Below, piece after piece: positions 1 to 38,045 of a stretch of DNA of 64,000 nt. Origin of the DNA: Elusimicrobia bacterium RIFOXYA2_FULL_47_53. Its GTDB lineage: Bacteria > Elusimicrobiota > Endomicrobiia > Endomicrobiales > XYA2-FULL-47-53. Location of the stretch: NCBI GenBank assembly GCA_001800315.1, contig MGVE01000006.1:234021-298020 (forward strand), in the 5' to 3' direction. Numbering within the stretch: position 1 is the first letter of the stretch; every line of letters starts with the position of its first letter. Under the pieces are notes generated by a model. That model ran no database searches and had not been told where the DNA came from. It saw only the letters and a list, made by a program, of their open reading frames with translations. A program made the translations under genes and the position numbers.

Positions 1-3000
1 TTAACAAAGTGCCAGTTCAAATAGGAATGAGACGAAACCTTGAAAAACAGAGAGGACACAAATTCAGGCAGGTTTTTTAACATTGAAATTATTGAAACCG
101 CCCCAAACGCGCGCCGGCCGGTTTTTTGCGTTTTTATTTCGCCGTCACCCGATTTCTTTTCCGGCTTAACCGCAGGCTCATCGGGTTCTTTAAGAGCTTC
201 AATGGTTGACGGTTTGGAAAAATAATCAAATAGAAACATATTCCAAATGGTTGAAAACACGAAGGCATGCAGGAATATCAGGACATTGGCCGAGTCAAAA
301 TACGGGAAATAGGTGCGCATTGCGTCGTCTAAGCTCCAGCCCACTGTCATCGCGGCAGTCCAGTACAAAGTGTTATAGCCCATGAGCCTGGCGTAGCGGT
401 TCCACAAATTTGACACCACATTCTTAACACCGGGTTTGTCGTATTCCCCTAAAAACAGCCCTCTTATGGATATTTTATGAATAGCGAGCTCCATGGTAAG
501 CACCCTTAAACCTGTGTTCACAAGCGGTGAGACAAAACCCACATCAAATATCACCCTCGCGAATATCCCCATCACCTCTCCCTGTCCTGCCAGAGCGGGA
601 GTAAAGTATCCGGCCATAAAGAATCCATAAAGGAAAATATACCGGTAATAGCTTGTAAGAAGGGATTTAAACGACCAGCGAATAATTTCTCTGAAGCCGC
701 CCGGGTCAGTTACTCCCCGTTTCATAAGATTAATCTTATTTGACAGTCCCTTGCCCTGGCTCAGCCTGGCCCTTGACATCCAGGAAGCTACAAACGCGGT
801 GGCAAACGCTATCGCGACTTTATAGATATGTCCGGCCGAACCGACTCCGTCGTAACCAAGATTTGAAAGCGCAAAATGAATAAACGGTATCGCGGCTGTC
901 GCGGGAATAACGAAGGCGAAATTGGTTCTTACTATTTTTGGGATAGCCCTTATCGCAGCGTATTTATTTTCCAGGGCGGCGGCGCGCTCGCTGAGCCATT
1001 TACCTGCCAAGATACTGCTGTTTAGCAACCAGCCTCCCGCTACCAATACCGCGAAGGGCGCCAAAAGGCCCGGGAAAGCGGGCAGGATATAGAAAATTGA
1101 AATACCTATATATAGAACTGTCAGCCAAAGGCCGAATTTATTTATTCCTCTTATTATCGCGGGCTTATATTCCGAAATACCGAAGGCCGCGCGCAGTGCT
1201 TTGCCGAAAACAAACCTGCCGATCGCGTAGGTGCTCGTCAAGGTGAGCGGTGTGTTGATTTTCTTTGGTAAAACTATGGTGAAAGCCGCTCCCTTATCTT
1301 TCACGCTATGAATGCTAATTGTCCCGTTCATACTTTCAACCATGTCTTTGCAAATAGCAAGGCCGTAACCGGAGAGCCCTCCCTCTTTACTTGTTTCTCC
1401 AGGATTAAACAACCTGTTATCTTTCAGAAGCTCTTCCGGAATGCCTGGCCCGTTATCAGAAAATACAATAATCCAATTATCATCGTCTTCTGAAACGCGA
1501 ATTTCACGCAGAGGTTTCCAGTCAGTTTGTGCGTGTTTCATTAAAAGATAAATTTCATAATCATAGGAAGCTTCCTGTGAATTTTTAAGCAGATTTTTAA
1601 ATATTCGCGATAATGCGCCTTTATTGCCCAATATTTCAGTCTTATCTCCTCCCCAATTAAACTCAAGTAAAGCATCCTCACGAGTTATTGAGCGGAGTTG
1701 TTGTTCAAACACCTCATTATTTATGGTTGTGAGTTCTCTGCTGTCCTCTATAATATTCTGCAATTCATCAACCATGTTCAGCAGATCATTGTCCTTTTCT
1801 GTTAGCCGCGCTTTAATATTATCCAGCTCCAGAACAAGTTCGCGCGCAAGAGAGTCTAACTGCTCCGAGATAATTCTTTCGTTACTCTGTTTGTTCTTAT
1901 CCTTAGCCTCCCAGATCTTATTTACATATGCGGCGCTCAATTCTTGAAACCGCCGCGGGTTTATTTTATTTTCACCGCGATTACTAACTTCTATGATTTT
2001 TTTCTTGAACTCCGGAATAAGAGCCAAATCATGTATCCGCATAGTGTGTTTAACAATATTTTTTCTTGTATCCAGTTCCAGGGCAGTCAATTTTGTTTCT
2101 AATTCATCTTTTTCAAACACGGGCTGTACATTGGCCTTGGATGAAACGGTTTTTTTGCTGTATATCGCGGGAAGCAATTCTAACAGCTGAGGTTCGCCTC
2201 TTTCTATTTCTTCAAGGATCGCGTACGCAACAACCTCGTCGGCATATCTTAAAAGGCTGTGTATCTCGCCGGCGTATCTTCTGTCGTTTCTTTCAACCCC
2301 CAATACTTCCCGCTGGTCAATTATGCGGATGTGTCCGTCATTAGAAATATGGTATTGAATGTCTCTGTCAAAATCCAGGCCCTTTGCATTTAACCGTGCC
2401 CTGGCTTCTTTGAGTTCCAGGTAAGTCTGCAAGGTAATGTTGTTCCTGCCGGCAAAAGGCATTTCACCCGGGACTATATCCATAACAATGTTAAGTTTGT
2501 CCTCGCTGTCGCGGTAAACGCCGTACACTTTCGGGCCTATGCCCAGCCGGTCCGCCGTGACCGCGCCCTTGTAATCCTGAAGAAATTCTTTTTCCAGTTT
2601 TCTGGGCGAATCTTTTCGCGTGAGCTTGCGCAGAGCAACCGGCGTACCGTCGTCAAGCCAGCCAACCCTGACCACGGCGTTACCGCCGCTGAAATGCGCG
2701 CTGCCAAGAATTATCTCTTTTCCCGGGAAATTGACATTTTCCAATAGCGGTAAGTTATCCGCGGTGAAATTCGTATCGCCGGTTTCCCGGGCCGCTCTTA
2801 ATCCGCCGACGGTTGAATAACCGACAGGGAGATCCTCGGAGCGGATAGCCATGGTGGGCAGATAAACAAAGTTATCGCGCCTTTTTCTTTCTATATAATT
2901 GAGTATACCCTCATCTTTTACGACCTTTTCCGTACTTTCAGCGGCTCTTTTTAAAAGGTGTTCTATCGCGGGCGGCATCTTTGTCCTGTACTCGCCAGTC

Positions 3001-6000
3001 TCCGCGACAGGAACAGAGGCGCCGTCGGCCACGCCTTCTTTCTGCCACAGCTCCAGCTCCCAGTCATAAGTTGAAGCGAATTTGCCGGCCATTACTTTTT
3101 CAAAAGCATTGTTTATTTCATCATTTAACAAATCAAGCTTGACGCCTCTTTCGCCGTTTCTCCATTGGCTGGTTATTTTTTCCCATACTGACCTGAAATT
3201 TTTGTTGAGCTTTTTTTCACTGATATCGGGGCCTATAACAATTACCTTTGAAGAGGCTGTCACAACATCTATGAATTTTTCAATTTTATTGTTTACGCTC
3301 AACGAAGCTTTCTGGAGATAGACATCAACCGGCGTGAGATAATCAACCCCTGTAATATCGCCCTTTTTAAGCGTTATGGAGCGCATTTTTGGTTTCTCTG
3401 CGCCGGGATAAGCCCACCAGAATTTCAGCACCGCGCTCCCGTCGGTATTTACAGAAATCGGAAGAATATCATTTTGTTTGACGCCTAAGGCCTTGAGTTC
3501 CAGGACTATAAGCTCCTCCATATATGAGTCAACAAGCTGTATGGGCCAGTAGCCGAGGTGATTTCTGTATTCATAGTAAGCGGCAGGATGGCTTTCATAA
3601 ACATCAAGCTCAATATCATCCCATTTCTCTATCAGAGCCTGCAGGCCATTTCCGTCATACCCCAACTTGTCAATAAATTCCATTTCCGTGGCATCCGCAA
3701 TGAACAGCGGGCTTGCTATATCCGGACCGGAGGCCGCGTATCTTAAAGAAATTCCTAAGCTCTTCGGATTTATTATTTCCTTGTTTTGCAGGTAATACTC
3801 CATTTGTTCCGGGCTTATAAGCCCGTTTTCAACAGCGGGTATTCTGTTGATAAAATCTTCATTTTCTGACATTTTGCCGCTGGAGGTTATTTCTTTTCCA
3901 AAAATCAGCGGCTTGCCGGCTTTGGTGCCGCTTCCAAATAATAAATTGTAAAGCGCGTGCGTTGAGGCGTTGGCAAGGTAGGCTATATAGGCGTTCTGCG
4001 TGAAGTGCCACGCGAGGTAGGTCGCTGTCCATATTGCGCCGGCTCCGGCAAGCCTCGGCCAGTCGGGTTTGCCCAGCAGGAAATTTATCAGTATCTGAAG
4101 TGTGTGCAAAACAATATCAGGCAGCCAGAAGGGGGCAAATTTCAGCTCTACCCACCGCTTCATTTGCGGTTCATTGGAAAGCGTTTCTTTGTATTGCGGA
4201 TTGCTCTTGCGGAAATTCTTGAAATACCATCTCCCTATTTTATAGGTGCTCGCATGCGTAAGCCGGGAACCATTTTCATCCGAACTAATTTCTTCGGTGC
4301 TGTGCACTTTCCCGGTAGATGAAACCCCGGCGTATAAACCAGATCTATCTGTATTCGGACTGCTGTGAACCGATTGTCTTGGCAAATCGGGCCATGGGAT
4401 GTCTTTAAATTCCGAGAATTCCGGGCCCGCCATAAACCTATTATTATCTGTTTTAATAATTCTGCCATCCTCTTCAAAAACCGCGAGGTTTTCTGACAGG
4501 GCGTTTACATCCGCCTCATAGCCAAATTTACCATTTACTATCTTTTGAATATCTGAAACGGTGAATGTTTTATCAATTAAATATAGACGCACCACTTCGC
4601 GAATCATGCCCCTGTAAATAATGCTCTTTAACTCATTCCCTCCCAAAGTGATTTTTTCGTCACTGATATATTTAAGGGTTTTTGTGAAATCGCCCAGCAA
4701 TCTTTCCCCAAACTTCATTGAAACGGCAGAGGTTATGGTTGCGCTTTTTCTTTCATTTTCACTCAGTTCAACCATCTCTTGTAGATAGTCAAGAAGGATT
4801 CGCGTCTGCTCGTCAATCAATTGCCTTATAAGCAGCTGTTCTTCGCTCTTTATTTCTCCGAATTTGGCTGAGCGGAAAATAATCTTCAATTCCCAGAAGA
4901 ACATCGCCTGGCTTTCTTCCCATTGCTTAATTAAATTTATGATTTCCGAAATGTCTTTGTCTTTGAAACTATATTCGTATGCGAGCCGATTGGGATCATA
5001 AGTATCTTTATCTATTAATCCCAAATCAATCAACTGCGCGGTGAACCTGCTTTGCGTCATCGGGATATACATTTTAAGCGGATAGGTTATGCGGCTATCC
5101 ATGCCCGTTTTTTTAAGAAATGATATATTTTCCTTAACCTCTTCTGTCGTAACCAATGGGTCTACCATTATAAATCCCGGCACAACATAAATACCCATGG
5201 ATTCTATTCGCGCAATTGCTTCTTCATTCTCTGCAACTGTGGCCGCCTTGCCGTAACGCTTTAGTTGTGCGGGCGACCCTGATTCAATGCCGATGAACAA
5301 CACCCTTAACCCGGCCGCGTAAAGTTTTTTATACGCGTTCAATCGCTTTTCATTTTCAAAATCCGAGTCATTCTGCCTGTACACATTGCGAACGCTTGCC
5401 GAGGTGCCGAAAATTAATCCCGGGTGAATGTTGCCTTTCTTTTTTTCATCAATGATTCTGTCGGCCAAATCAAGCACCCTTTCCACGCCGCCGGCAAATA
5501 GATCTTCATCAACAAAATTTATATTCCGCACCCCTAATTTGCTCGCTTCAATAATGTCCTCAATAATTGAATTGATGGGACGGCCTTTCCATCCTCCTTC
5601 CAAAAACGGTTTTCTGTCGCATATAGCGCAATTAAACGGGCACCCGCGGCTGGTTTCCATGTATACAACACCGCCTGAATTCACAACTGCCGGGAGTATA
5701 TCGGGCAAGGGTATGCCAATATTCTCTATGGAGTTGCTGCTGCGCGGCCCATTCCGCCTGATTCCGTTTTCGTCAATGTATGAAACATTATGAATTGCTG
5801 ATTTGGGTATATTCCCCTTCGCAAACTTTACGGTATCTATCATTGCTTCTTCGCCCATCCCAACGCAAACCATGACCTCGGGAAACTTTTCAAGAATGAA
5901 GTCAACATTATAAGAAGCGACAATGTTTCCAGCGATAACAATTGGCCTTTCGCTTTTTGGCAGAGAGTTGACATAAGCCATTACGGCGAATAATTCCCGC

Positions 6001-18000: not shown

Positions 18001-21000
18001 GCTTTTGCCACCGGCCCCTCAGCCACCTCATCAAACGCCAGTATTTCGCTGGGCGTAAGTTCCGGCTTTAACTGCCCGTCCGGTTTAACCCCCTGGACGC
18101 TGTCTATTACTTCGTGACTATTGAAGTCGTAAGGGAAAATGTCTTCCCTGATGATTTTTAACGCCTTTTCGGCCTCAGGCATTTCGGCGAGTTTTTCAAA
18201 AAGCGCTTCGTTGGCTCGGTATTTAAGGTAAATGTATTCCGCGGCTCGTTTTGTCATGCCAGACGAGGGCTTTTCGCTGAGAAGAAACATTCTGTCGTAA
18301 AGTTCTCCGCGCACCTTGTCCCACAGGCCTTTTGGTGGCCTGACTATATTGTTTTCTTTTTTAAGTTTGAGATATGAAAACAGATGGCCGACCTCGGATG
18401 GAAGAAAAAGCAGGTTATGAGTCATACGCACTTTATGCAAAGATAAGCCGCTTTCAAAAAACGCGCTTAACCAGTTATTGTCTGCCTCAAACCGTGATCT
18501 TGCCTGCTGATCATAAAAATGATGTTTCTCTACTAAATCGGGGTGCAGCATTTTAAGCATATAAGAAGGGATTTTGCTCAGCAGCCTGGCGTAAACGAGG
18601 CCCTGCAGGAAATTCTTAAAGTTATGCAGGTCAATGTGCTGGTCATCAAAGATATCCACTATCTTCGCGACTTCGTATTCGGCGCTTGTGGAATACGCCC
18701 CCGCCCTTATCTCGGGGATTGAGGCGTAAATCAATACGATCTGATAGGGCACATCGGCCCACGAGATATCCGCCGCGGGAGGAGGGATATTTCTTTTCAT
18801 CATCTCCTCTCTTATAAGAGGAGCGAGATAGCCCTCTGTCCATTTTTTAAACGCATCTTCTTCCGAGCATGTGAAAAGAGCGGAAAGCATATACGCGTTC
18901 GTTTTAGGAGTAAAACCGAACTTTTGCGCGGCGGTTTTGTAAATTACAAGAAGAGACTGGGAAATAGACGCCACCCGGGCTCTCTTTTCTCCGACAAATA
19001 ATTTGTTCGTATCAATCCATCTTTTCATCCCGAGAACAAGGTATTTCTCATTTTCAGTCAGCTTCATTGACTCAAAAAACCATCTGAGGGTAAGGTCATA
19101 TTTATTGCCCTGGATAAGCGGTTTGAGTCCGAGCGGCAAATTTCTTTTTCTTATCTCCGAGCGAATCTCCCGGATTCTGAGAGCCAGCTTGTCCCCGGAG
19201 AACCCCGCGGCAGACGGAATTGAATATTTAATATCTGAAAGCAATATGTCAATTGACGGTTTTTTCCGGGCAGACTCTTTTAAGAAATTTCTAAAAACCC
19301 GCCCGTCGGCCTCCGCCAATATTTTCAGCATCGCATTAAGCTTAATGAATTTGCCGGCATCCTCTTTCCGAAGCATTTCCGCTACTGCGGGATAGGCCTC
19401 GGCAAGAATAGCCATTTCTGCTGAAGGCAATGCCCCAATAGTATCTGACATCTCGCGCAGATACTCTGATGTTTCCTCAAAGGTCAAGCCGTTGCCGCGC
19501 ATAATGGAGGCGCTCTTTGATGCCGCGTTGAGGAATATTTCCCTTTCCTGCGCTAATTCTTCTCCTGCGCCGAGCGGAGAAATATCAAGTATTTCGGCCC
19601 AGCCAGCCACATCCTCGCCGTTAAAATGTCCCTCTGTTAAATCAAAAATTTCGTTTAAATATATTTTTGTGTCGGGAGAATTGGCTTTAATCATCTCGGA
19701 CAGCTTATTAACGAATTCCGCTTTTGAAAGATTCCAATTATTTTCCGCCTCTTTAAGCGTTTCACCTGGATCAAGCTTCTTTTTATATTCAATAAGCGAG
19801 TTCTCGGCCTGCGGGTTTAAAAGAAGGTACGCGTTTCTAAGGGCGGTGGCGATAGCGCCGGATGCTATCCCGAGAGAAAAAGCTGAAAGCAATAATACCG
19901 GTGCTGATTCCTGCGGAGCCGAGAAAAAAACGCTCCAGCTAAAGCCGGCGGCCGCCACAAGCAGCTCAAAGAAGCGGCTGCGGAAATACCGGTCGTACCT
20001 GCGTTTCCTGTACTGTTCCGGATTTCGGAACCGTTCAATAAAATCCGAGATGCCGAACAGTTTTGTTTCTTGATCGCGGGGTTGAATTCTAAATTCGTTT
20101 CGCGCGGAGGATTTTTTCGCGTCTTCGCTGCCGCGCGCCCTTGCGGCATCCCCGGTGAAAGGAGCCGCGCTGTCAATAAGTTCTCTCAGGCTGACCTCGT
20201 CGCCCCTGTCGCCTATAATTTCCGCGTATTTTATAAGCAGCATGTCAATCTTGACGCTGTTTCTTCTTTTCCACTCCTCGCTGCCGCCTATCTCTTCAAT
20301 GACCTTCTTTGTGTCCACTTCTCTGTAATCATAGCGGTTCTTTATTAAAAACATAAACAAGCCGCTTTCAATCTCATCGGCATGCTCATCATCTGTCGCG
20401 GTTAAAAATGCTTTTAAATATTGTTCGGCCGCCTCGCGGTATTTCCGCGTATTCTGATAGACGATGGCCAGCGACTCGTAAGCATAGGCTATTTTAGCGT
20501 GGCCGGTCCGGAGCGCGGCCTTCAGCAAAAACAGGGCGCCGTCATAATTTTTCTGCCTCATGTAGCTTTCCGAGAGCCCCAGCCGCGCGTCAAAATTTTC
20601 CGGATATAACCTTAGTGTTTTTTCAAACAGCGGAATCGCTTTTTCGGGTTGTCCGGATTCATTATAGAAATCCCCGGCCGCGTTTATGTACATTGGATCG
20701 GTGGGAACCAGTTCAAGGCATTTCAGCAGGCTTTGCTCCGCCTTATCGTTTCTTCCCAATTCTATATTGCAGAGGCCTTCCCAATAATAATTGTCGGGGT
20801 CATCAGGTCCCAGCTTAATGGACTCTTTAATATAGGCAAGCGCCGCCTCGTGGTCGCCGAGGTCGTAATATTCGGCCGCTATTCTTGTCATAAGCGATGA
20901 TGCGGCATGCTTCTCGTCAAAAACATTCAGGTAAGAATATCCGGCGAGCGGTTTTCTGCTTAAGTAGCGCTCAAGAGGGGTATCGGGATCCCTGTTAAAG

Positions 21001-24000: not shown

Positions 24001-26228
24001 TTTCGTTTTTCCCGTTCACTGATAATAGCCTGCGCGAAATCCGGGAAGCGCGCCAAAATCTCCTTCTCAATGCCGTCAATCTTCTCTTGCGCGCTTAATG
24101 CCGGATCGGATACAATTTCGTAAATTAAACCATTGCCGGTTAAAATGTTGTTTGCCGCGGCAAACTCAAACAGCTCCCTTGCTATGGAATAGATATCGCC
24201 AAAAACTATTCTTGAAATAAATCCGGCGGCATCAAGCAGTTCGTAAACCGCCGCCTTGGCCTCCGCCACGAGCCCCGCGGGCTGGCTTACAATCTCTCCG
24301 GTTATTTCGCCGCTCCCCAACTTTATGACTGTGCCGTTCTCAAAAGTTAATTCTCCGCGGCTTGTGTTATAGCTTGCTTTTTCTCCGAAGGCCTCTTCTA
24401 TTTCGCGTATCAGTCTGGTTTTCTCGGATATACCAGCGCCTTTTATTTTATTATCCAGGGCTTTTATCGTAAGCTCAAACAATTTAGGCGCGGAACTCTG
24501 CGAGGCGAGAGCCAGGGCCAGTTGTTCCGCCGGAGACGCCGCCGCGTTTATCATGTCTCCGCCGGCTTTCGCGCTCCGCTCCAGGGAATGAGTTTCACCG
24601 TTAATCTCAAGGGCCTGCCGCATGGCAAGCCGCGCGTAAACTCTGGCCGCGGTTTTATCTTCTTTTGTGGCGCCCGGCGTGATATTTATGTACGAAATAT
24701 TTCTTTCTCTGAGCAGTTCATTGAGCCCCCGGGTATGGAAACCTCCGGTAATAACGGCAATGATTTTTGTATTTTTCAATTTGTTTACGAGTTCGGCTTC
24801 CCGGTATAAAGCTCCCCGCGCCGCGCCGCTCGCCGCGGCCTGCGTTTTCCGCTCGCCGCGGAGTTCTTCAATATTATTCAGGAAACGGGTATTTCTGCCT
24901 TCGTTTGTTCCGTAGAATTCATTGAGCAGGGCAAAATCCTTTTCCAGCGCTCCGATTTTGTCGTCGTAAGCGTATTTCAGCCATACGGTTTTAAATTTTG
25001 CGAACCTGGACTTGAAGTATTCATAGTCCTGCGCGGTAATGCTGTTTAAAAGAAATCCTTTGAAATACGGGAAGAAATCGGCGAGGAAAGCGACCTCAAG
25101 CCCGCTTCTGTCGCCGGCGAGCGCCACCCTTATATCTTCCGTCAGCCTTCTTTCTTCCTCAATAATTTTTAAGGGATTTATCGCGCGGTTATTCTCTATA
25201 TAACGGAAAAACCCGCAAAGTTCCGGGAAGCGCGACTCAACCCAATCCTGATAAGGCGCCCCGGCGGAGGCGCCGGGTTTTTTAGCCAGCTGAGCCAGGT
25301 AAACATACAGTTCGTCCACCTTTGAAAAATTGCCGGTTTTCTCAAGCAACGAGTTATACAGATTAAAGCTGATCCTTGATTTTAATTCCTGGATGAACTG
25401 CTGCATCTGGCCCGAAACTTTTCCGTAATTTAACTTTTTGCCCTGCCTTATCAGCGAGGCGTAAGCCGCCAGGCCGGGGAATTCTTCGGTTTTGATGGAA
25501 AGCGGGCTTTGGTAATCCCCGGGGTTTTCGTTTATTCTATCGGCATACGCAAAAAGCCTTTTATAGTATTCGGCGGCCTCTATTTTTCCCTTCTTATAGT
25601 CCTCTATCAGCCGGTTAAATTTCCGGCTTTCCGGGCTCATGTATTTGGCCTGCATGAAACCAAGCTCTTTTCCCAGCGCCCCGGCGGCTTTTTCAAAATG
25701 CTCCTTCTTTTCAAGTATGAGCCCCAGCCTGGCGATATTCTGCCTGTGGATCTCTTTGTCTTCAATGCCCGTCAGAATATCGGGTTTATAGGCGGTTATG
25801 GAGAAATACTCTCCGCCGGTCAGGCTTCCGTTTTCCAGCAGGTTTTCCACGAGCTCTTTTTTTATCGCTCCGTCTTTTATTCCCGCTATGCGGGCGGTGC
25901 TGATCCTGCCGTAGCCGCCCTCCACATACACATTGGCGAGTCCGAATTTTCCGTCCAGCTCGGACAATATTCTTGAGATATTTCTCTGCACCTCGGCATG
26001 GCAGTGCAGGTCCTGAATATTTACAACCGTCAGGCTGTCGGCGCCGGCGTCTTCGGGAGCCCAGAATTCGGTTATCCTGCCCGCCGTGTGCGCGATAATG
26101 ATGTCTTCCAGCGCGCGAGCCTGCGGCCCCGCGCCGCCGCTGATTTGTACGGCGGCCTGGATGGGCTCGGCCATCACGAAGGAGAACAGAAAGCTTGATA
26201 ATGAGATGAGCGCTATGATTTTTTTCAT
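1..26228 (-). CDS. Giant multidomain exported or membrane-anchored protein, C-terminus outside window
   Basis: One open frame of at least 8,742 codons starts at the ATG at 26226-26228 and runs off the left edge. I checked the frame at the signal peptide and at domain motifs near 23327, 21182, 20591, 13970, 13043, 11288, 8897, 5618, 4259 and 1457; every codon falls in the same phase, so there is no net frameshift. The protein begins with a Sec signal peptide and then alternates soluble domains with hydrophobic hairpin modules. Domains are listed separately. Stretches near 2740-3890, 9080-10200 and 17560-19790 are mostly helical and I assign no family. No Shine-Dalgarno is visible before the ATG. 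Giant genes of this type are known from Omnitrophota; the cellular role is unknown. The mixture of cytosolic-type enzyme domains behind a signal peptide suggests either a multi-pass scaffold or a polyprotein that is processed. Continuity is very well supported, function is not. Confidence 0.93.
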   Translation of the reverse strand, partial: MKKIIALISLSSFLFSFVMAEPIQAAVQISGGAGPQARALEDIIIAHTAGRITEFWAPEDAGADSLTVVNIQDLHCHAEVQRNISRILSELDGKFGLANVYVEGGYGRISTARIAGIKDGAIKKELVENLLENGSLTGGEYFSITAYKPDILTGIEDKEIHRQNIARLGLILEKKEHFEKAAGALGKELGFMQAKYMSPESRKFNRLIEDYKKGKIEAAEYYKRLFAYADRINENPGDYQSPLSIKTEEFPGLAAYASLIRQGKKLNYGKVSGQMQQFIQELKSRISFNLYNSLLEKTGNFSKVDELYVYLAQLAKKPGASAGAPYQDWVESRFPELCGFFRYIENNRAINPLKIIEEERRLTEDIRVALAGDRSGLEVAFLADFFPYFKGFLLNSITAQDYEYFKSRFAKFKTVWLKYAYDDKIGALEKDFALLNEFYGTNEGRNTRFLNNIEELRGERKTQAAASGAARGALYREAELVNKLKNTKIIAVITGGFHTRGLNELLRERNISYINITPGATKEDKTAARVYARLAMRQALEINGETHSLERSAKAGGDMINAAASPAEQLALALASQSSAPKLFELTIKALDNKIKGAGISEKTRLIREIEEAFGEKASYNTSRGELTFENGTVIKLGSGEITGEIVSQPAGLVAEAKAAVYELLDAAGFISRIVFGDIYSIARELFEFAAANNILTGNGLIYEIVSDPALSAQEKIDGIEKEILARFPDFAQAIISEREKRNINIHEKAGQEEWLKVLLLADLFGGIIAGFGAYGQEPAANETEQAAAVHSYSAASFGESDRLINELMTTLTAGYSEYIGDFSGGILSAGKVKPGIVRETNIVELIPRDVFHEGLIKDEDGIYWIVKKQDIFARDRNAPDRKIKDTPSHEMLAWLISQGRSNMAEIRFLSPQELKGVDFINKDELYRYYLTRLVVPSNIDASKLAVRDRARAFNANFVTNILLRKWDQHYGNIAFAGDLPVTIDNDEVLPFYLFDNRGGGINRFYSLFLYHSVFSTAKTVKPLSSDWSEDYRALVALMKQTDYATVRAYFLLMFEKYGLGAGLTQAESLNETYLRESIENFKSLDSDTLQRLCEQAGYEGRELENAVNFLLENHARLGQDVNELYYMLSGKDAELDLLDSGGPAQKYKDREKEKYANILGRKRPAGKPKLETAALDAAKPADGAGKAGKPSGITLSAHLAPVFFFAASLVGISPELGALMPGGPQSVVSNLFPLLEFMISPAAITLAAAITAAAAIFQSIGFRAKGGAISGPEAGEFSLRLEKAINERAVPLLSADIESITDDNGLLGKTQIKSIKELLRSGGNLVLHSSSGKEWFYKKIIGPLAEDLNRNDEIHLLGRLYFALNSGREIFAPSQQSFELINQSQEPIDKDGILGRLTAHLNGRGMAVSVVSHIGDFRDTKITPLGGYLPENTVPVSVGKIASGEFEKETGPGRLFTVQPVRQKDTARIFSYAAARLYGKYQIDSTQAGSRGNNNLSWTFENRARIADSVSVGGPGFVWATQTPSPETGQTAKTFLVPLLSKNMTEFTAALPEGADAFTFFWSGAAETVSGRVPGRWDENLYRVHQLKNRQLMSELGRLNTANISETAALMKEFIGGRYGLETLLVLIDKFVTFAQYGPEAKNRYGKTFDAFQNYFISEAARKKLIQNLVPEQFVNILSEGDCTVIAYALWELLKSLPLPDAVKIVHIGVPQHVFLGLMAGEYILAFDFAMRKVGPIVLNMSFNRDPDTPLERYLSRKPLAGYSYLNVFDEKHAASSLMTRIAAEYYDLGDHEAALAYIKESIKLGPDDPDNYYWEGLCNIELGRNDKAEQSLLKCLELVPTDPMYINAAGDFYNESGQPEKAIPLFEKTLRLYPENFDARLGLSESYMRQKNYDGALFLLKAALRTGHAKIAYAYESLAIVYQNTRKYREAAEQYLKAFLTATDDEHADEIESGLFMFLIKNRYDYREVDTKKVIEEIGGSEEWKRRNSVKIDMLLIKYAEIIGDRGDEVSLRELIDSAAPFTGDAARARGSEDAKKSSARNEFRIQPRDQETKLFGISDFIERFRNPEQYRKRRYDRYFRSRFFELLVAAAGFSWSVFFSAPQESAPVLLLSAFSLGIASGAIATALRNAYLLLNPQAENSLIEYKKKLDPGETLKEAENNWNLSKAEFVNKLSEMIKANSPDTKIYLNEIFDLTEGHFNGEDVAGWAEILDISPLGAGEELAQEREIFLNAASKSASIMRGNGLTFEETSEYLREMSDTIGALPSAEMAILAEAYPAVAEMLRKEDAGKFIKLNAMLKILAEADGRVFRNFLKESARKKPSIDILLSDIKYSIPSAAGFSGDKLALRIREIRSEIRKRNLPLGLKPLIQGNKYDLTLRWFFESMKLTENEKYLVLGMKRWIDTNKLFVGEKRARVASISQSLLVIYKTAAQKFGFTPKTNAYMLSALFTCSEEDAFKKWTEGYLAPLIREEMMKRNIPPPAADISWADVPYQIVLIYASIPEIRAGAYSTSAEYEVAKIVDIFDDQHIDLHNFKNFLQGLVYARLLSKIPSYMLKMLHPDLVEKHHFYDQQARSRFEADNNWLSAFFESGLSLHKVRMTHNLLFLPSEVGHLFSYLKLKKENNIVRPPKGLWDKVRGELYDRMFLLSEKPSSGMTKRAAEYIYLKYRANEALFEKLAEMPEAEKALKIIREDIFPYDFNSHEVIDSVQGVKPDGQLKPELTPSEILAFDEVAEGPVAKAASDSWYAAERKKIEMKTASSGQEEQLNNEVAILLGVPVISLLDNPDSFFIPAPDLTLERGLGDSAHMYAERILCDAVIQLVVSMEEAGVDPRFQPLLVPKMLEYLVPRLEREEAELYGILKNIETVDKDLVSQWFEELVKEGRVRKAFGFNAAGLGEILSNNKGFAETEFVIRMFKNIVLVVMVTAFPWLYNHWLRVSTPLQLVAFFAGLMFLYWLPYLSESVGTAIADRLQKRESNKLDNKINTLLNLQDKMSGFQGMLDLASQSKYRIGLTELMLLGDEELRFRDTHRQMLEKGIRLLRDEILSMKEFLSSRLPAEQEFAEKYFSGNREMAFEFAKAVLTKNEFERLKWFVDANSSDPQKREIANIEEITRGELRDGETLTVPGTYSLARGLAGGAQLLFGQAPTFGIDHPVINRLIELVFAPLFVPDLFIHAARDDLSDSQISGLKAIAIATSAMLLVSFYLLNLPIFTTLVSAYFANAAAHNIYNLYALQGEALTAGAAEEEEGGLAVFETNNPSSERRIDRLTYEALKKLKKHTVKNLRIYSNGRVVIEGGKLRLGIAQNPDGLAEIDVVDGVVTELRVIVDGRVAESYPFTLVYDNSTGRLVKSFRDFISKGDVAQFTNHTVKKYRTNKDNAAVLGGYIARIGEEPFSEVEIDFKDGVAVALRSIKDGRVSEEKKLITIHDNQSGKIIMSAEKPALAKLRTLKNATVKNLHTDGNMLLNFMEKSYHVGREPDLEAEADIRDGVVVAARAYKNGRLDEEIKYKIIRSAETGQVTGSFEKLSPEELSKLNNHTITDFFVPENRVIQIGGKYICKTQKGGIYAELDVRKGVVTGVRTVENGKVTENKALALVYDETGRLVESVDELSRAARLGLEKCTIRNIKTGKDSLIWIDNAVISFANYPERDAELELVGGLPSEVKILSDGKVLASKKLALVYENATGRPVKWFEKLNPADLAKLSGHTIRQFITDKTGAISFGNERFLDLDLYPNAETEIYIENGRPVSVKYLKDKDGEPIFDVNGQPLEILLNNDIKNQMRKKSPAAQARRASYLQKLYDSAVELFIKGEDRAARRKFAYIVVRGRSLPSANLAEQNLAYKAQNYLERINGIIAAERTAGLSSEQDEVFNSQYRMAESLFAAGHFAEAMELFTHLKKTAKNDYPLTAVVSARISDSRASVKLESALSLMVQKRFGEATAQLKSFRQNRDPYLAEMSKRLMNECKGWELYETVNKLYKSGRYKDALKKAKALMKKADKTTNVYGAARHLAELSMARTAGTEATPGQIFIKPEIDRAVENEMFRILGLKNNADRKAEARKHIIGNYIWLVRNIVVNNYARYDLFSQDELISEGLLALYDLIDRYIADGLFGNISFEKYVQGELGAALDLAARELNRARFKEKSLDEKISSKDGEGPTKLERMTYDDSDYSLAVEENDEIRVLLGRLEAADRLVVEKVLTKGYTAQEAANSAGISEDEALAIIKRAYSILMEITAQDEDMLSRKEEEARLRDKKALADEEMLTAPQTRSTFRGFFGGVQLLFGQAPTFAIDHPVINRLIELVFAPLFVPDLFIHAARDDLSDRQAYGLQVIAVLASLTIFYSFYVFSLPLTATLVAAYLSLSIPHFIININESGQETLGWIKNAFTRESPLDAPAEVLIIGGGTGSGKIVELFKGRFKDGIRSITSYMDNGGSSKDIMDDIAFYWAAGKPARRPAREAVRAATIPHPGDVMSAITGGVAEEWKRWFLNARSFEARSFVQLLDSAKVQAAERFKGKVGETELEAFYNRLLPYFKNADNKWKGKIRISGRGHSVKNIIFLAALDAENACPSGWVVPSRYNRALERAMRITGSGSVSVPASPATYRDASFTALLSDGGLLTGQEDITAGYHPASYIEKVAFYDNAGNPVKMPANPKALAMIQNAKRIVIGPGSAFTSIAVNLMADGVARELKKARERGVQIIFIFNATKDMETLNHTPQTLITAIERSINDSLESDYSFGDIVTHVVFNKAPVDDPALADFISGEAREIEEIRSDASRRPLEAGKHALGTFEISREDREFIEAKSIIPVGERLAEISASLQPRDSDGSRAAQSYHYSLPRLAEIFSRIETGLLPSASTKRPRAEQTAGINGQDIVIREGGRSTIDISRAPVPTKKDAMKDYLRKTGFRASGGIYIGNQTDSINERDGILCGIDGLTVLAVDEDQHRVIPEAVAIGSGIDAAQKELQRIFNLPAGELPKFIALDIDDTILGKKDVIVNGQKKTVYENLYEDRYEMAVVLAALYNRGVRLAFFTDRNSATAMSSVLVPLQQMIDSQQGRAKNEIYLYVSGMTTKFISRRNRNGAWALKPDKAYSSRSRISGQNAREITDILGEVAEENGQIKLTGMLGRLYKIYAVKNSEGKYVLRDEFRDLYPSIALGVTPGGNVGYPVIEKRDQGADGSVSQIAISPLFSSPLIDARKDFRALTVSALAASLKGRDFALRKGLVKPQQEEETLDGKTTKSTLPALVTDEKVMDRWTELTIAPFWLPDIVFHTLQILINFLLGKPDWPRLAGAGAIWTATYLAWHFTQNAYIAYLANASTHALYNLLFGSGTKAGKPLTVGEDGFGIKPSETGDENILIPTEKNPLITSAGGLLVRPDAVDNRRIIPVTDAAIVALINGKDAAGIGRAVDLLDKLERAAIVLPAQKESKKTETEVVRASAEESARYGVSGETKLGTEFANKNGVLIASMGAEQLPLLMNRYLESVRMEDERGERGRGRVNDEYADYALQKGADSEYRLLWDMIFGKEFNAKKFSKRYNNLGGNSKRRMAVSARRAAGFVYSNMINGVLKGDDRAGEVRDATQKAFTRFIIRADASGADKLAKELRYQLLEILSARVNLAVAGYTDYLKALNTSDAEHPGARIAAFREIYFKDFVPEFRSLVRILGRSREWDEAAKSKLLEIAEKVIVFEECAGELRWISGVFEGEGDKRLKERYDLISPLLGETKFEPIPGITRKFGIELEMNADEEEDYLIDNGKQKSWNGLKIFFKKLGADYNASMHIHCDRGAYESEITAEQKRNLYTIALFLDGYLCAINTHNGEEIGGRQLILPYLFVVTENHMDAKVFYHHNIINFSRDHNTIESRFLMTPVRALPLNNRARAQYIRDALTVSDGLTRAIMEGGVTGLEDVVLPVFASGYEQRIDFSNLDRALKAVFGENRAAILSFKRLLLYSGRNAIPIDESDMRSRKTIENEVKSYYFLRGKLGVYKRLASGGRRHIWDGVVEEKHAKRVKEMLGRISAVGRQKDKVTDIIKGLNTETKLEISEGLEALNERAVNMDGKNKFYEAWEKGNLSLEKLPDMLNRKKTQQFYIALYKAIERIIITKDERGEDVAKLLDMLFDAVRKEEKDRSFGSAAIVTVGNVLSAKVERGEDISKWLNMLLNLAREEGRERNRNFAETAWNAIGDVISIKAERGEDVSEILKLLGNKDTNNATIILEARVGMLSCIRKIITRAGTRTEDVSEGINILRDLYEDKFLSNDLRGMAIVNIGVSMSERAELGKDVSEGVNILFNLPGDIMLPVELRATALRTIGNFAGGAVNKEIVNKALILMEDIFKDKTGPGLLRRTSIKVLGEVLSENAAQTGHVNRWLDVLARAVRDKDLAFIDSLVLIQNIGTAISAKGLEDKDIYEGLRVLEGLAREEKISEELRETAMDKIRDVVSLEATRNKDVSEGIKVLERLVTGEGVTGNIRWNAHGVLGRVELIQSEFAERKQNGQDSKSGGGGEIIIEILANIDPSTYKNTGGIKPAEPPRANEINNGTHLTLESTYKIGKWYFKNFRKSNPQYKEMLSNEPQMKRWVELKFAPFWLPDIVLHTLQILINFLLGKPDWPRLAGAGAIWTATYLAWHFTQNAYIAYLANASTHALYNLLFGSGTKAIKPLTVGEDSSDINMVDNESVKVTLSFFSKIRDTSKIDNPLSIAVLGGTLKNTFKDSVKVSMVHYLEEGDVQKIIERINQEKPKILGLSLGFGSLRELFAVMAYVNSLPKSERPIVIAGNIVASYNVDFILEKFPEVMVCVGMGEEAMIDTVKFAKGNIPKSAIHNVSYIDENGIRRNGPRSSNSIENIGIPLPDILPAVVNSGGVVYMETSRGCPFNCAICDRKPFLEGGWKGRPINSIIEDIIEASKLGVRNINFVDEDLFAGGVERVLDLADRIIDEKKKGNIHPGLIFGTSASVRNVYRQNDSDFENEKRLNAYKKLYAAGLRVLFIGIESGSPAQLKRYGKAATVAENEEAIARIESMGIYVVPGFIMVDPLVTTEEVKENISFLKKTGMDSRITYPLKMYIPMTQSRFTAQLIDLGLIDKDTYDPNRLAYEYSFKDKDISEIINLIKQWEESQAMFFWELKIIFRSAKFGEIKSEEQLLIRQLIDEQTRILLDYLQEMVELSENERKSATITSAVSMKFGERLLGDFTKTLKYISDEKITLGGNELKSIIYRGMIREVVRLYLIDKTFTVSDIQKIVNGKFGYEADVNALSENLAVFEEDGRIIKTDNNRFMAGPEFSEFKDIPWPDLPRQSVHSSPNTDRSGLYAGVSSTGKVHSTEEISSDENGSRLTHASTYKIGRWYFKNFRKSNPQYKETLSNEPQMKRWVELKFAPFWLPDIVLHTLQILINFLLGKPDWPRLAGAGAIWTATYLAWHFTQNAYIAYLANASTHALYNLLFGSGTKAGKPLIFGKEITSSGKMSENEDFINRIPAVENGLISPEQMEYYLQNKEIINPKSLGISLRYAASGPDIASPLFIADATEMEFIDKLGYDGNGLQALIEKWDDIELDVYESHPAAYYEYRNHLGYWPIQLVDSYMEELIVLELKALGVKQNDILPISVNTDGSAVLKFWWAYPGAEKPKMRSITLKKGDITGVDYLTPVDVYLQKASLSVNNKIEKFIDVVTASSKVIVIGPDISEKKLNKNFRSVWEKITSQWRNGERGVKLDLLNDEINNAFEKVMAGKFASTYDWELELWQKEGVADGASVPVAETGEYRTKMPPAIEHLLKRAAESTEKVVKDEGILNYIERKRRDNFVYLPTMAIRSEDLPVGYSTVGGLRAARETGDTNFTADNLPLLENVNFPGKEIILGSAHFSGGNAVVRVGWLDDGTPVALRKLTRKDSPRKLEKEFLQDYKGAVTADRLGIGPKVYGVYRDSEDKLNIVMDIVPGEMPFAGRNNITLQTYLELKEARARLNAKGLDFDRDIQYHISNDGHIRIIDQREVLGVERNDRRYAGEIHSLLRYADEVVAYAILEEIERGEPQLLELLPAIYSKKTVSSKANVQPVFEKDELETKLTALELDTRKNIVKHTMRIHDLALIPEFKKKIIEVSNRGENKINPRRFQELSAAYVNKIWEAKDKNKQSNERIISEQLDSLARELVLELDNIKARLTEKDNDLLNMVDELQNIIEDSRELTTINNEVFEQQLRSITREDALLEFNWGGDKTEILGNKGALSRIFKNLLKNSQEASYDYEIYLLMKHAQTDWKPLREIRVSEDDDNWIIVFSDNGPGIPEELLKDNRLFNPGETSKEGGLSGYGLAICKDMVESMNGTISIHSVKDKGAAFTIVLPKKINTPLTLTSTYAIGRFVFGKALRAAFGISEYKPAIIRGINKFGLWLTVLYIGISIFYILPAFPGLLAPFAVLVAGGWLLNSSILAGKWLSERAAALENKYAAIRAIPKIVRTNFAFVIPATAAIPFIHFALSNLGYDGVGSAGHIYKVAIAFATAFVASWMSRARLSQGKGLSNKINLMKRGVTDPGGFREIIRWSFKSLLTSYYRYIFLYGFFMAGYFTPALAGQGEVMGIFARVIFDVGFVSPLVNTGLRVLTMELAIHKISIRGLFLGEYDKPGVKNVVSNLWNRYARLMGYNTLYWTAAMTVGWSLDDAMRTYFPYFDSANVLIFLHAFVFSTIWNMFLFDYFSKPSTIEALKEPDEPAVKPEKKSGDGEIKTQKTGRRAFGAVSIISMLKNLPEFVSSLFFKVSSHSYLNWHFV
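230..1245 (-). other. Multi-pass membrane domain of the giant protein
   Basis: About seven to nine hydrophobic helices directly follow the HATPase domain. Examples are LYIGISIFYILPAFPGLL, FVIPATAAIPFIHFAL, IYKVAIAFATAFVASWM and LIFLHAFVFSTIWNMFLF. The start (STYAIGRFVFGKAL) resembles the opening of the repeated A/B modules. The window ends soon after, in a Lys/Pro-rich linker. Confidence 0.7.
1265..1700 (-). other. Histidine-kinase HATPase domain of the giant protein
   Basis: The N box FKNLLKNSQEA, G1 box FSDNGPGIPEELL and G2 box GGLSGYGLAICKDMVESMNG are all intact and correctly spaced, ending in FTIVLPKK. A clear H box is not seen in the helical region just before it. This is an ATP-binding GHKL domain able to act as a kinase if a phospho-acceptor exists elsewhere in the chain. 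Confidence 0.85.
2260..2740 (-). other. Protein-kinase-like fold in the giant protein
   Basis: SAHFSGGNAVVRVGW, then TPVALRKLT (candidate ATP-binding Lys), LNIVMDIVPGE (hinge-like) and HISNDGHIRIIDQ (possible D-x-x at the end of the catalytic loop). The arrangement resembles aminoglycoside-phosphotransferase or kinase folds, but the HxD catalytic motif is not clear. It could be a pseudokinase. Confidence 0.4.
3890..4262 (-). repeat. Repeated membrane module, type A, copy 3
   Basis: Opens with the motif STYKIGRWYFKNF and then follows the same order of segments as copy 2. It separates the radical SAM domain from an unassigned 1.1-kb stretch (2740-3890) and the kinase-like domain. Confidence 0.92.
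4980..6180 (-). other. Cobalamin-binding-type radical SAM domain of the giant protein
   Basis: YMETSRGCPFNCAIC carries the CxxxCxxC cluster motif (Cys 6863, 6867 and 6870 of the giant protein). Before it is a Rossmann-like region with ILGLSLGFGSLRELF and VIAGNIVASYNVDFILEKFP, ending VCVGMGEEAM, as in the B12-binding part of BchE/HpnP-like enzymes. After it come INFVDEDLF, LFIGIESGSPAQL and VVPGFIMV, typical of the radical SAM barrel. The enzyme appears complete. Radical SAM enzymes work in the cytoplasm, which conflicts with simple export of this chain. Confidence 0.85.
6262..6640 (-). repeat. Repeated membrane module, type A, copy 2
   Basis: Contains STYKIGKWYFKNFRKSNPQ, RWVELKFAPFWLPDIV, GKPDWPRLAGAG, LAWHFTQNAYIAY and ASTHALYNLLFG. 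By eye it differs from copy 3 at only about eight positions over roughly 310 bp, so the two were duplicated or converted recently. Confidence 0.92.
6780..8090 (-). repeat. HEAT-like repeats in the giant protein
   Basis: About nine helical units of 40-50 residues each carry a motif like '(G/E)(K/R)DVSEG(I/V)xIL' followed by '(D)LR(G/A/E)xAxxxIG'. Examples are TRNKDVSEGIKVLERL and AELGKDVSEGVNILFNL. This periodicity is that of HEAT or armadillo-type solenoids, which act as scaffolds. Confidence 0.7.
8600..9070 (-). other. Amidoligase-like domain of the giant protein
   Basis: RKFGIELEMNADEE (near residue 5730), SMHIHCDRG (about 5775) and NTIESRFLMTP (about 5850) reproduce the amidoligase (glutamine-synthetase-fold) series: G(V/I)E(L/I)E, then H-x-H, then an IE.R motif. 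Such enzymes make amide bonds on peptides or cell-wall precursors. The call is by motif only. The stretch upstream (9080-10200) is helical and unassigned. Confidence 0.5.
10210..10500 (-). repeat. Repeated membrane module, type A, copy 1
   Basis: Encodes APFWLPDIVFHTLQIL, GKPDWPRLAGAGAIW, LAWHFTQNAYIAYLANAS and THALYNLLFGSGTKAGKP. DNA from about 10225 to 10465 is nearly identical to the copies at 6262-6640 and 3890-4262. Upstream of that the sequence diverges. Confidence 0.9.
10560..11320 (-). other. HAD-like phosphatase domain of the giant protein
   Basis: KFIALDIDDTILGKK (first Asp at residue 4979) is HAD motif I, DxDxT. It is followed about 40 residues later by VRLAFFTDRNS, matching motif II. 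Later basic residues could provide motif III. It lies right after the CofD/YvcK-like domain, so the two may act on related phosphorylated substrates; that link is inference. Confidence 0.65.
11760..13050 (-). other. CofD/YvcK-like domain of the giant protein
   Basis: Starts at residue 4396 with VLIIGGGTGSGKIVELF. Next come SYMDNGGSSKDIMDDI and PGDVMSAI, and near 12235 IVIGPGSAFTSIAVNLMADGV. This is the signature series of the CofD/YvcK family: glycine-rich loop, (D/N)GGSS, PGD and GPGSLxTS. The family contains 2-phospho-lactate transferase and the YvcK cell-shape/gluconeogenesis factor, which binds UDP-sugars. All glycine motifs are kept; the usual D of DGGSS is N. Confidence 0.75.
13150..13450 (-). 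repeat. Repeated membrane module, type B, copy 2
   Basis: Second copy of the B module (FAIDHPVINRLIELVFAP, VPDLFIHAARDD, two hydrophobic helices). The first half is almost identical in DNA to copy 1 and the second half has diverged. It sits between the sigma-like and CofD/YvcK-like domains. Confidence 0.85.
13530..14100 (-). other. Sigma-70-like segment in the giant protein
   Basis: Residues about 4044-4234. The stretch RNIVVNNYARYDLFSQDELISEGLLALYDLIDRY, then FGNISFEKYVQGELG, follows the sigma-70 region 2 pattern (dL-xxEG-xxAL-xAxxxF-xxxGxxFxxYA). About 90 residues later comes a helix-turn-helix (ADRLVVEKVLTKGYTAQEAA, then GISEDEALAIIKRA) in the place of region 4. Both halves are present in the expected order and spacing. 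Whether it binds RNA polymerase is unknown; in an exported chain it may be a domesticated fold. Confidence 0.6.
14260..14930 (-). other. TPR-like helical segment in the giant protein
   Basis: Pairs of amphipathic helices with motifs such as AESLFAAGHFAEAMELF and LYKSGRYKDALKKAKAL, which match degenerate TPR units. They link the beta-type repeats to the sigma-like domain. Confidence 0.55.
14950..16440 (-). repeat. Six tandem beta-type repeats in the giant protein
   Basis: Six units of about 83-87 codons begin near 16394, 16132, 15870, 15612, 15358 and 15108 (spacing 250-262 bp). Each has the pattern HT(V/I)xx(F/L), an (I/V)GGxY-like turn, AExDxxxGVVxxxR, DGRVxE and LVYDxxTGR(L/V)VxS. The strand-turn pattern and conserved 'DG' and 'TGR' turns suggest a beta-solenoid or MORN-like surface. 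I recognise no named family. Such arrays usually form binding or spacer regions. Confidence 0.8.
16505..16865 (-). repeat. Repeated membrane module, type B, copy 1
   Basis: The module opens with a TYSLARG motif, then FGIDHPVINRLIELVFAP, VPDLFIHAARDD, two hydrophobic helices and AYFANAAAHNIYNL. It is nearly identical in DNA to 13150-13450 over about 145 bp (16672-16816 against 13264-13408). It also shares the core 'ELxFAPxxxPDxxxH' and 'Y(F/L)ANAxxHxxYNL' with the three type A modules. Confidence 0.85.
17300..17510 (-). other. Membrane hairpin in the giant protein
   Basis: Two hydrophobic segments (IVLVVMVTAFPWLY and LQLVAFFAGLMFLYWLPYL) separate a long helical region of unknown family (17560-19790) from the repeated B-type module that follows. 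Confidence 0.6.
19800..19990 (-). other. Membrane hairpin in the giant protein
   Basis: An Arg-rich lead-in is followed by two hydrophobic helices (FFELLVAAAGFSWSVFF and a second beginning APVLLLSAFSLGIASGAIA). A short turn separates them, so the hairpin would return the chain to the same side of the membrane. Confidence 0.6.
20380..20940 (-). repeat. TPR array in the giant protein
   Basis: About five consecutive 34-residue helix-turn-helix units with the TPR pattern: small residues at positions 8 and 20 and a Pro near position 32. Examples are the motifs LGRNDKAEQSLLKCLEL and PEKAIPLFEKTLRLYP. TPRs mediate protein-protein contacts. They directly follow the transglutaminase-like core. Confidence 0.85.
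20990..21240 (-). other. Transglutaminase-like Cys/His/Asp core in the giant protein
   Basis: The segment SEGDCTVIAYALWELL has Cys at residue 1684. It is followed by PQHVFLGL with His at 1714 and ILAFDFA with Asp near 1725. This order and spacing (Cys at the start of a helix, His on a strand, Asp on the next strand) is that of transglutaminase-like cysteine proteases or acyltransferases. All three candidate catalytic residues are present, so it could be active. Confidence 0.55.
22430..22650 (-). other. Membrane hairpin in the giant protein
   Basis: Two hydrophobic stretches, one containing APVFFFAASLVGI and the other alanine-rich (AAITLAAAITAAAAI), follow a Pro/Lys/Ala-rich linker. They would anchor the chain in the membrane after the kinase-like domain. 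Confidence 0.6.
22900..23760 (-). other. PI3/PI4-kinase-like domain of the giant protein
   Basis: Residues about 824-1110. The stretch ILLRKWDQHYGNIAF (Trp-Asp near residue 968) followed by VTIDNDEVLP resembles the catalytic loop (D-x-x-x-x-N) and the metal-binding Asp of phosphatidylinositol-kinase-like and HipA-like enzymes. An upstream WIVKK could supply the ATP-binding lysine. Substrate unknown; the family call is by eye. Confidence 0.5.
24660..26110 (-). other. TraB/ChaN-like N-terminal domain of the giant protein
   Basis: Residues about 40-520. An N-terminal QDLHCH motif (His75 and His77) is followed by an EGGYG turn near residue 108, and a GGFHTRGL motif sits near residue 490. A metal-binding His pair at the start with a late G-x-H motif is the layout of the TraB/PrgY, ChaN and erythromycin-esterase-like superfamily, in which these residues line an active or haem/metal site. 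The assignment rests on motif spacing only. The middle is long and helical. Confidence 0.5.
26154..26228 (-). other. Signal peptide of the giant protein
   Basis: Residues 1-25 have a KK n-region, a hydrophobic core (IIALISLSSFLFSFVMA) and a small-residue cleavage region ending PIQA just before AVQ. This is a standard Sec signal peptide, so at least the N-terminal domain should be exported or periplasmic. Confidence 0.85.
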
Positions 26229-26250
26229 GATTATTTTTTTAAAACATTAT

Positions 26251-26289
26251 TCTGAAAAAAGAAAAACCCGGTTTTTATCAAACCGGGTT
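26251..26289 (-). terminator. Intrinsic terminator or attenuator hairpin before the giant gene
   Basis: A perfect 10-bp stem (26265-26274 with 26280-26289, loop of 5) is followed on the minus strand by a T-rich run. It overlaps the stop codon of the upstream small gene and ends about 20 bases before the giant ATG. It may end the small transcript or act as an attenuator for the giant gene. Confidence 0.8.
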
Positions 26290-26771
26290 CATCTGCGGCT
26301 AAACGAAAAAAAAGCGTACGCGTCCGCGGGCAGATTACCCCTGCGGAGCATAACAAAATAGATTAGCAAAAACACAAATGCAAAACCGGGCGGGGCGTGA
26401 GCGCGCGGCGTGCCCGGCGCGAAACCTCGTAAAGCCGTAAAGGCGCCGGCATTTTCGCCGGAAGTCTCTTGCTGAATCAGTTTGAAATAGCTGGAAGACG
26501 GCGCGGCCAGAGAATATTTAGAGGCTTTGCCGAAATCGTTGGAGTTTGAGGCTTTGCCCGGCTGCCTGAACTCCGGGAAAAGAGGAGCCCCGGATTTTAT
26601 TAAGCCTTCAACCATCCTGCCAGGAAGGTCGGCTAAAGCCGAGAGCCTGTGAAGCCCGGACTCTATCTGAGGCTGGGCCGGCACACTAAAAACAGGGCGC
26701 GCCGCAAAAAACCCCGCAAGGCTGTTTAGCAGTATAAATATAGGTATTGATAACAGGAAAAACTTTCTCAA
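26289..26771 (-). CDS. Small secreted/membrane protein upstream of the giant gene
   Basis: 160 codons from a TTG start with AGGG about nine bases upstream. No ATG or GTG is available before the preceding in-frame stop. The product has an N-terminal signal or anchor (FFLLSIPIFILLNSLAGFF), a low-complexity Pro/Ser/Ala-rich middle, and a hydrophobic C-terminal segment (FAFVFLLIYFVML) with a basic tail. I recognise no family. It is the only gene between the giant ORF and the rpmH promoter and points the same way as the giant gene, 60 bp ahead of it. It may be a partner or simply a leader cistron. A hydrophobic segment plus basic tail recalls sorting signals, but no known motif is clear. Confidence 0.5.
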   Translation of the reverse strand: MRKFFLLSIPIFILLNSLAGFFAARPVFSVPAQPQIESGLHRLSALADLPGRMVEGLIKSGAPLFPEFRQPGKASNSNDFGKASKYSLAAPSSSYFKLIQQETSGENAGAFTALRGFAPGTPRAHAPPGFAFVFLLIYFVMLRRGNLPADAYAFFSFSRR

Positions 26772-33824: not shown

Positions 33825-33837
33825 TTCTTCGCGCGCG

Positions 33838-34073
33838 GATGAAAATATTTTTTTGTATGAAAGCCTGATAACTTTGAGATGTTGTTGAAAACCGCTTTTT
33901 CTGTTGATAGTGTTGATAACTTCATAATGTTTTCCACTTGAATCTCTACTTTAACTATCGCTCTATTCGGCTGTCTTTGCGGGCTACTTTATTTGTTTTG
34001 AAAAGTTTTACAGGTTATCAGGCCGCCTACTACTACCACTACTAGTTTTCTATTCTATATATGGAGGCATTAG
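33838..34073. other. Candidate oriC unwinding region between dnaA and dnaN
   Basis: The gap holds a DnaA-box variant (TGTTGATAA, 33911-33919) and a pair of inverted TTATCAGGC sites (complement at 33863-33871, direct at 34015-34023). The last is followed by a GC-rich GGCCGCC, then the triplet series CCTACTACTACCACTACTAG (34026-34045) and an AT-rich run to 34061. Box, GC cluster, trinucleotide repeats and AT stretch is the arrangement of the bacterial origin unwinding system (DnaA-trios). This follows the Bacillus subtilis pattern; activity is inferred. Confidence 0.75.
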
Positions 34074-35180: not shown

Positions 35181-35254
35181 TAAATAAGCTCACGGGTTCT
35201 TGGGTTGTCAGGCCGCTCATAAAGAGCCTGCGCGCCAATAAACAGGTTTAGGCT

Positions 35255-35539: not shown

Positions 35540-35555
35540 TCGGAGGCATTTTTAA

Positions 35556-38012
<2,457 letters not shown>

Positions 38013-38045
38013 ACAATATTTATCTCAGGGAAAGGAAACCAAAAA

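Follow-up and report, generated by a model that had tools for sequence, protein, structure and literature searches.

A giant minus-strand gene in a 64,000-nucleotide stretch of the genome of Elusimicrobia bacterium RIFOXYA2_FULL_47_53 (the whole stretch, contig C6:234021-298020, is referred to here as the window) is, by its sequence, a member of a family in which a constant head is followed by a changing middle and a recurring C-terminal tag, with a small gene directly upstream. We regard it as about an even chance that the product is an envelope-anchored carrier of an Elusimicrobiota-type bacterium, built as head, cargo, and tag with interchangeable enzyme-derived cargo. The genome comprises 2,413,529 bases in 20 contigs.

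The frame is open from an ATG at window position 26228 through the left window edge (1..26228, minus strand; residues 1-8742), and its stop lies 1,663 bases beyond that edge in the same frame, a TAA at C6:232358-232360. A sequence-only reading of the window had proposed a single giant minus-strand open reading frame (ORF) of at least 8,742 codons next to the origin; the complete gene has 9,296 sense codons (27.9 kb), the remainder lying to the left of the window at C6:232358-234022, and the dnaA, dnaN, gyrB, gyrA cluster at 32460-40652 confirms its origin-proximal location. At ~110 Da per residue, we estimate a product of ~1 MDa. With a codon-usage model trained on eight neighbours (yidC, mnmE, ksgA, dnaA, dnaN, gyrB, gyrA, and a metH-like gene), the giant's frame scores best of six in 92/92 windows of 100 codons, so no internal frameshift or noncoding stretch is apparent and a chance or broken frame is ruled out. 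The joined stretch (window plus left extension) contains no N, and no in-frame stop, named earlier as something that could break the frame, interrupts it.

Head, C-terminal tag, and upstream gene

The head occupies residues 1-560 (24549..26228, minus strand) and consists of a signal-peptide-like start and a conserved domain. The start, MKK followed by a hydrophobic stretch, is similar in 27 aligned heads, and the signal peptide proposed earlier is plausible on these grounds. The same alignment has 21 invariant columns, H75, E103, and H498 among them. No Pfam family matched the head; its predicted fold resembles EreA/ChaN at moderate scores, with no Foldseek match below E 0.001, and the nearest candidate among known folds is the EreA/ChaN/HopBA1 type (EreC 6xcs, ChaN 2g5g, HopBA1 5t09). 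Six of the 12 rows of the fold search, not used for this assignment, were helical bundles (TTYH2, ScdA, and others). The fold that we predict for the head is EreA/ChaN-like, with His, Glu, and His residues invariant, and differs from that fold type in its long helical middle and in standing, so far, at the start of a long chain.

A search with the first 560 residues led to four further places in the same genome, each starting a giant frame (8,798, 4,774, 4,640, and 5,410 codons); by arithmetic, the five genes together make up 98.8 kb, or 4.1% of the genome. The four paralogues rule out a single exceptional gene, and with a separate 17,343-codon ORF in the same genome they make the earlier description of the protein as exceptional an overstatement. 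The head was found in 52/149 relatives by a single-sequence search and in 70/340 genomes of the phylum by an alignment-based search. Named carriers, for which 80 of 206 confirmed loci were kept, are Elusimicrobia; their names include Endomicrobiales and Endomicrobium as well as taxa called after rumen or termite. The head begins within the first 75 residues in 81 of 84 head frames from named loci, and all 19 head frames with a stop are at least 1,275 aa long. Eleven database proteins of 352-926 aa also hold the head, several of them labelled partial or lying on short contigs; a short free-standing head protein possibly exists, with P0007 (635 aa; longest contig, 21.9 kb) and P0009 (909 aa; 19.5 kb) as candidates. 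Two Candidatus Omnitrophica giants, P0028 and P0029, match the head weakly (E 4.0e-22 and 9.9e-20, respectively). One head, at G030:C20:17195-18721, is broken by five stops; it belongs to genus g7, where many genomes show no head.

At the other end of the chain, the pattern [LIVMF]x[AST][AGS] closes 47 of 58 head frames (the window's giant ends VLLAA) versus 0/388 other ORFs, and occurs across 16 of 24 tail groups; it is absent from the most distant head giants, P0027-P0042 (0/16). That this family tag stands in the same frame as a start 27.9 kb away is itself evidence that the giant's frame is maintained as one unit. A tail domain that starts at 1..71 (minus strand; residues 8720-8742) continues to residue 9296 outside the window, but its presence in 25/99 genomes and 8/19 complete head frames rules it out as a general feature. 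The tag is like both the ssrA degron and the type IX secretion system (T9SS) sorting domain in being a C-terminal signal common to otherwise unrelated proteins. The organism's own transfer-messenger RNA tag is ANENLALAA; in contrast to that degron, an LAA end is found only in the window's giant among the 58 listed ends. No T9SS/CTERM family was found in the giant's last 100 residues, where NCBIfam gave only a weak FakB1 match.

Ends of the hLxAA type resemble C-termini read by tail-specific proteases, and domain-sized cargo units lie between linkers in the giant, both of which would suit a polyprotein, in which head and tag would direct the processing of a long precursor into individual proteins. 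We nevertheless consider a polyprotein quite improbable: no protease family was found in the giant with Pfam or NCBIfam (for the C-terminal piece, among the matches listed, 25 of 77 NCBIfam families), the tag occurs nowhere but at the end, and we noticed no recurrent cleavage motif, although no search was aimed at one.

The small upstream partner of the giant (26289..26771, minus strand) has a TTG start and codes for 160 aa, hydrophobic at the beginning and again in a late segment, after which comes LRRGNLP; it has no Pfam match. The four other giants of this genome have the same upstream arrangement; three of the partners carry LPRGSIDD and the fourth RPRSAIDD. Counting as partners genes of 100-260 aa with two hydrophobic segments and an end -200 to +240 nt from the frame start, we find a small signal-peptide/transmembrane-type gene directly upstream in 50/84 head genes (79 from named loci plus the genome's own five, all of which have it) versus 9/253 control ORFs. 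In an alignment of ten partners a single Arg is invariant, within an LLPRGxID-like (LPRGxID-like) motif, but identity to the window's partner is only 12-23%. A partner profile recovered just two partners outside its seed at E <0.001, and three database proteins, including that of the window itself (in 21 contigs); what is demonstrated for the partners is thus a shared architecture, plus the motif in ten, homology of all being conjectural. Between partner and giant lies a terminator-like hairpin with a T run (26255..26294, minus strand; -20 kcal/mol, z -4.07 for 26229-26300), which suggests attenuation or a separate promoter. No other common neighbour gene, with secretion and protease genes being sought, was found among 485 ORFs near heads, where the widest neighbour clusters cover 9, 8, and 6 loci, small upstream ORFs included.

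Cargo domains and their turnover

Behind the head, the chain (minus strand throughout) carries TPR repeats (20394..20906; residues 1775-1945; Pfam, above cut-off), a sigma-70-like stretch (13542..14060; residues 4057-4229; NCBIfam, below the curated cut-off), a CofD/YvcK-like part (11859..13079; residues 4384-4790; Pfam CofD above cut-off at 4591-4757), and a weak HAD-like part (10602..11321; residues 4970-5209; NCBIfam 13.7 bits, below cut-off) with a DxDxT-type motif at residue 4975. These are followed by an OxsB-like B12-binding/radical-SAM part (5103..6143; residues 6696-7042), which has a 347-residue alignment to OxsB that takes in the cysteines, with Pfam Radical_SAM above cut-off at residues 6857-7038 and B12-binding below it, and by a HATPase_c part (1260..1619; residues 8204-8323; Pfam, above cut-off), a kinase-type ATPase to which no H-box aligns. 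Seven further pieces have no Pfam match above cut-off.

Four kinds of domain thus exceed the curated Pfam cut-offs (CofD, TPR, Radical_SAM, and HATPase_c) and about seven have any profile support from Pfam or NCBIfam, fewer than the more than a dozen types of the sequence-only reading. Its view that most active-site motifs are intact survives for the letters of the radical-SAM CxxxCxxC, the HAD DxDxT-type motif, the CofD GGGTG, and the ATPase G-box, and fails for the H-box. In a relative, the radical-SAM-like part of a giant (L272, G005:C6) lacks CxxxCxxC.

That one uninterrupted giant carries enzyme domains was rightly seen, and no adhesion family was found in it by Pfam at the thresholds used. 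The lack of such a family counts against a surface adhesin or coat whose spacers are decayed enzyme folds, comparable to other giant surface proteins, and the adhesin-like giant of this genome is instead the 17,343-codon ORF, with Big_7 and low lysine-plus-arginine (K+R) content. Catalytic motifs are partly absent (the H-box here and CxxxCxxC in the G005 copy), and a coat or adhesin role is proposed for Omnitrophota giants (PMC10066038), but we think such a role very unlikely for the giant described here.

Five hydrophobic modules lie between cargo parts on the same strand: A1 (16530..16919; residues 3104-3233), A2 (13122..13505; residues 4242-4369; 60% protein identity to A1), B1 (10203..10508; residues 5241-5342), B2 (6246..6551; residues 6560-6661; 87% DNA identity to B1), and B3 (3876..4181; residues 7350-7451; 91% DNA identity to B2). 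The three B modules are 85-92% identical as protein and 85-91% as DNA, and are thus probably recent copies; their presence in just 5/149 relatives rules out module B as a general feature. An internal repeat array (14960..16430; residues 3267-3756) of ~85 residues per unit has no Pfam match above cut-off.

The other head giants of this genome carry different sets: LysM, HEAT, and starch synthase in the 8,798-aa protein; GGDEF in that of 4,774 aa; nucleotidyltransferase, protein kinase, and Kdo kinase in that of 4,640 aa; and starch synthase, HEAT, RAP, and HD in that of 5,410 aa (L009; 4,970 residues scanned). The RAP match in L009 scores 28.8 bits (cut-off 24.2); the RAP domain is known mainly from eukaryotes. 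Source labels of 31 database head giants include epimerase/phosphoglycerate mutase, phosphoglucomutase, AAA ATPase, TPR, HEAT, radical SAM, redoxin, and SecA/glycosyltransferase proteins, and further accession labels presumably denote PGK, GPI, PFK, PEP synthase, and enolase. PEP synthase was also seen by alignment in P0026, where its parts are split and permuted (mobile-domain-like at ~2110-2262, nucleotide-binding-like at 4446-4749). In G001, a genome of the same family, a 2,515-codon head frame that runs into a contig edge has HAD (44%) ahead of CofD (55%), opposite to their order in the window's giant, and a compact form (L065, 1,788 aa) comprises head, cargo, and tail. The sister giants L107, L110, and L111 are alike to residue ~2,680 (60-98% per 100 residues) and then diverge, with at most 38% for L110/L111, at most 37% for L107/L111, and 5-62% for L107/L110, which retain related pieces at shifted places.

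In five related giants, the ratio of nonsynonymous to synonymous substitution (dN/dS) is 0.11-0.39 over the first 800 columns (ten pairs) and 0.36-0.57 over the whole length (10/10 pairs below 1), the latter including badly alignable parts. Cargo families also stand alone in this genome (CofD at C11; radical SAM at C11, C8, and C1), as might be expected of a read-through relic or assembly artefact, with neighbours fused by lost stops or contigs misjoined. We find this barely credible, as the frame is the best of six throughout, the family tag ends it 27.9 kb after the head, the same plan recurs in other assemblies, and dN/dS is below 1 in related giants.

Topology and possible function

Hydropathy alone gives 20 hydrophobic segments in the giant by a loose rule and 11 by a strict one. 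Charge and cysteine content give opposite hints as to the side of the membrane on which the cargo lies. Cysteine makes up 0.28% of residues in 36 giants, whereas it reaches 0.48% in 20 ORFs that begin with a hydrophobic stretch and 0.84% in 65 that do not, a poverty of the giants that speaks for cargo outside; K+R content is 13.4% in hairpin flanks versus 9.4% in loops (37 hairpins), which together with the iron-sulfur motif speaks for cargo inside.

The K+R bias would fit a membrane-tethered cytoplasmic multi-enzyme scaffold, with the head alone outside and the hairpins holding working enzymes at the inner membrane face, as would the retained iron-sulfur, HAD, CofD, and ATPase motifs and the cargo families of relatives, which by their Pfam labels belong mostly to central metabolism. 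However, the enzyme set here shows no pathway logic, the giants are cysteine-poor, a relative's radical-SAM part lacks CxxxCxxC, and cargo swaps fast, and we judge such a scaffold rather unlikely.

In the envelope-anchored carrier that we prefer, the signal peptide is predicted to place the head outside the inner membrane, and ten to twenty hydrophobic segments would stitch the chain into the membrane. The small signal-peptide/transmembrane-type protein could be a membrane partner receiving or anchoring the head, and the hLxAA C-terminal peptide may be read by a factor that admits complete chains and acts in sorting, processing, or quality control. Cargo would be exchanged by recombination, and may be presented to adjacent prey or host cells or transferred into them.

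More tentatively, we raise the possibility of a dedicated giant-carrier system of Elusimicrobiota, in which partner, exported EreA/ChaN-like head, and hLxAA tag form a standard chassis that takes up spliced-in copies of cytosolic enzymes as cargo and brings them across the envelope to prey or host cells. If so, the giant genes would be a modular export platform, with its head reaching into Omnitrophota. The common head, end, and upstream gene are handles for finding giants systematically, together with the machinery that handles them, and allow testing of whether giants are made as single chains.

Relation to known systems and neighbouring genes

The general plan of polymorphic toxin systems (PMC3482391) invites comparison with that of the giants. 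Likeness lies in a constant exported N terminus and exchangeable downstream modules, whereas the C-terminal end of the giants (tail and tag) is conserved, not variable. No toxin family was found in the giant by Pfam, and no immunity gene beside its C-terminal end, where UvrD and amidase genes lie downstream instead.

Giant genes are already known in this lineage. Giant ORFs are described as common in Omnitrophota, with few annotated domains, unclear roles, and poor conservation (Seymour et al. 2023, PMC10066038), and as common in Elusimicrobia (PMC12057145, citing a 2023 preprint by West-Roberts et al.); in the omnitrophotan V. archaeovorus, peptides of one giant ORF are reported to be 3-fold higher in prey-attached cells (PMC10066038). 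The window's giant resembles these in its length (ORFs >20 kb; here 27.9 kb), in having more than one hydrophobic segment but few domains that can be annotated, in being one of several giants per genome, and in lineage, its kin being Elusimicrobia/Endomicrobiales. It differs in that head, C-terminal tag, and upstream gene unite the set, and in the set's enzyme-type cargo. This plan was not found in the literature searched, including PMC11257099 on Endomicrobia genomes, and is apparently undescribed there, an earlier description in the West-Roberts preprint being possible.

Outside the window, the headless 17,343-codon giant at C6:90170-142201 looks adhesin-like by its sequence, with 5.7% K+R and Big_7 matches in its first 5,000 residues; the C-terminus of this ORF (L010, L020, L021) is weakly like T9SS/FlgD-type domains. 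Within the window, 45112-47517 codes for a MetH-like protein of 801 aa, whose match to the methionine synthase model (1,182 positions) is confined to positions 2-855.
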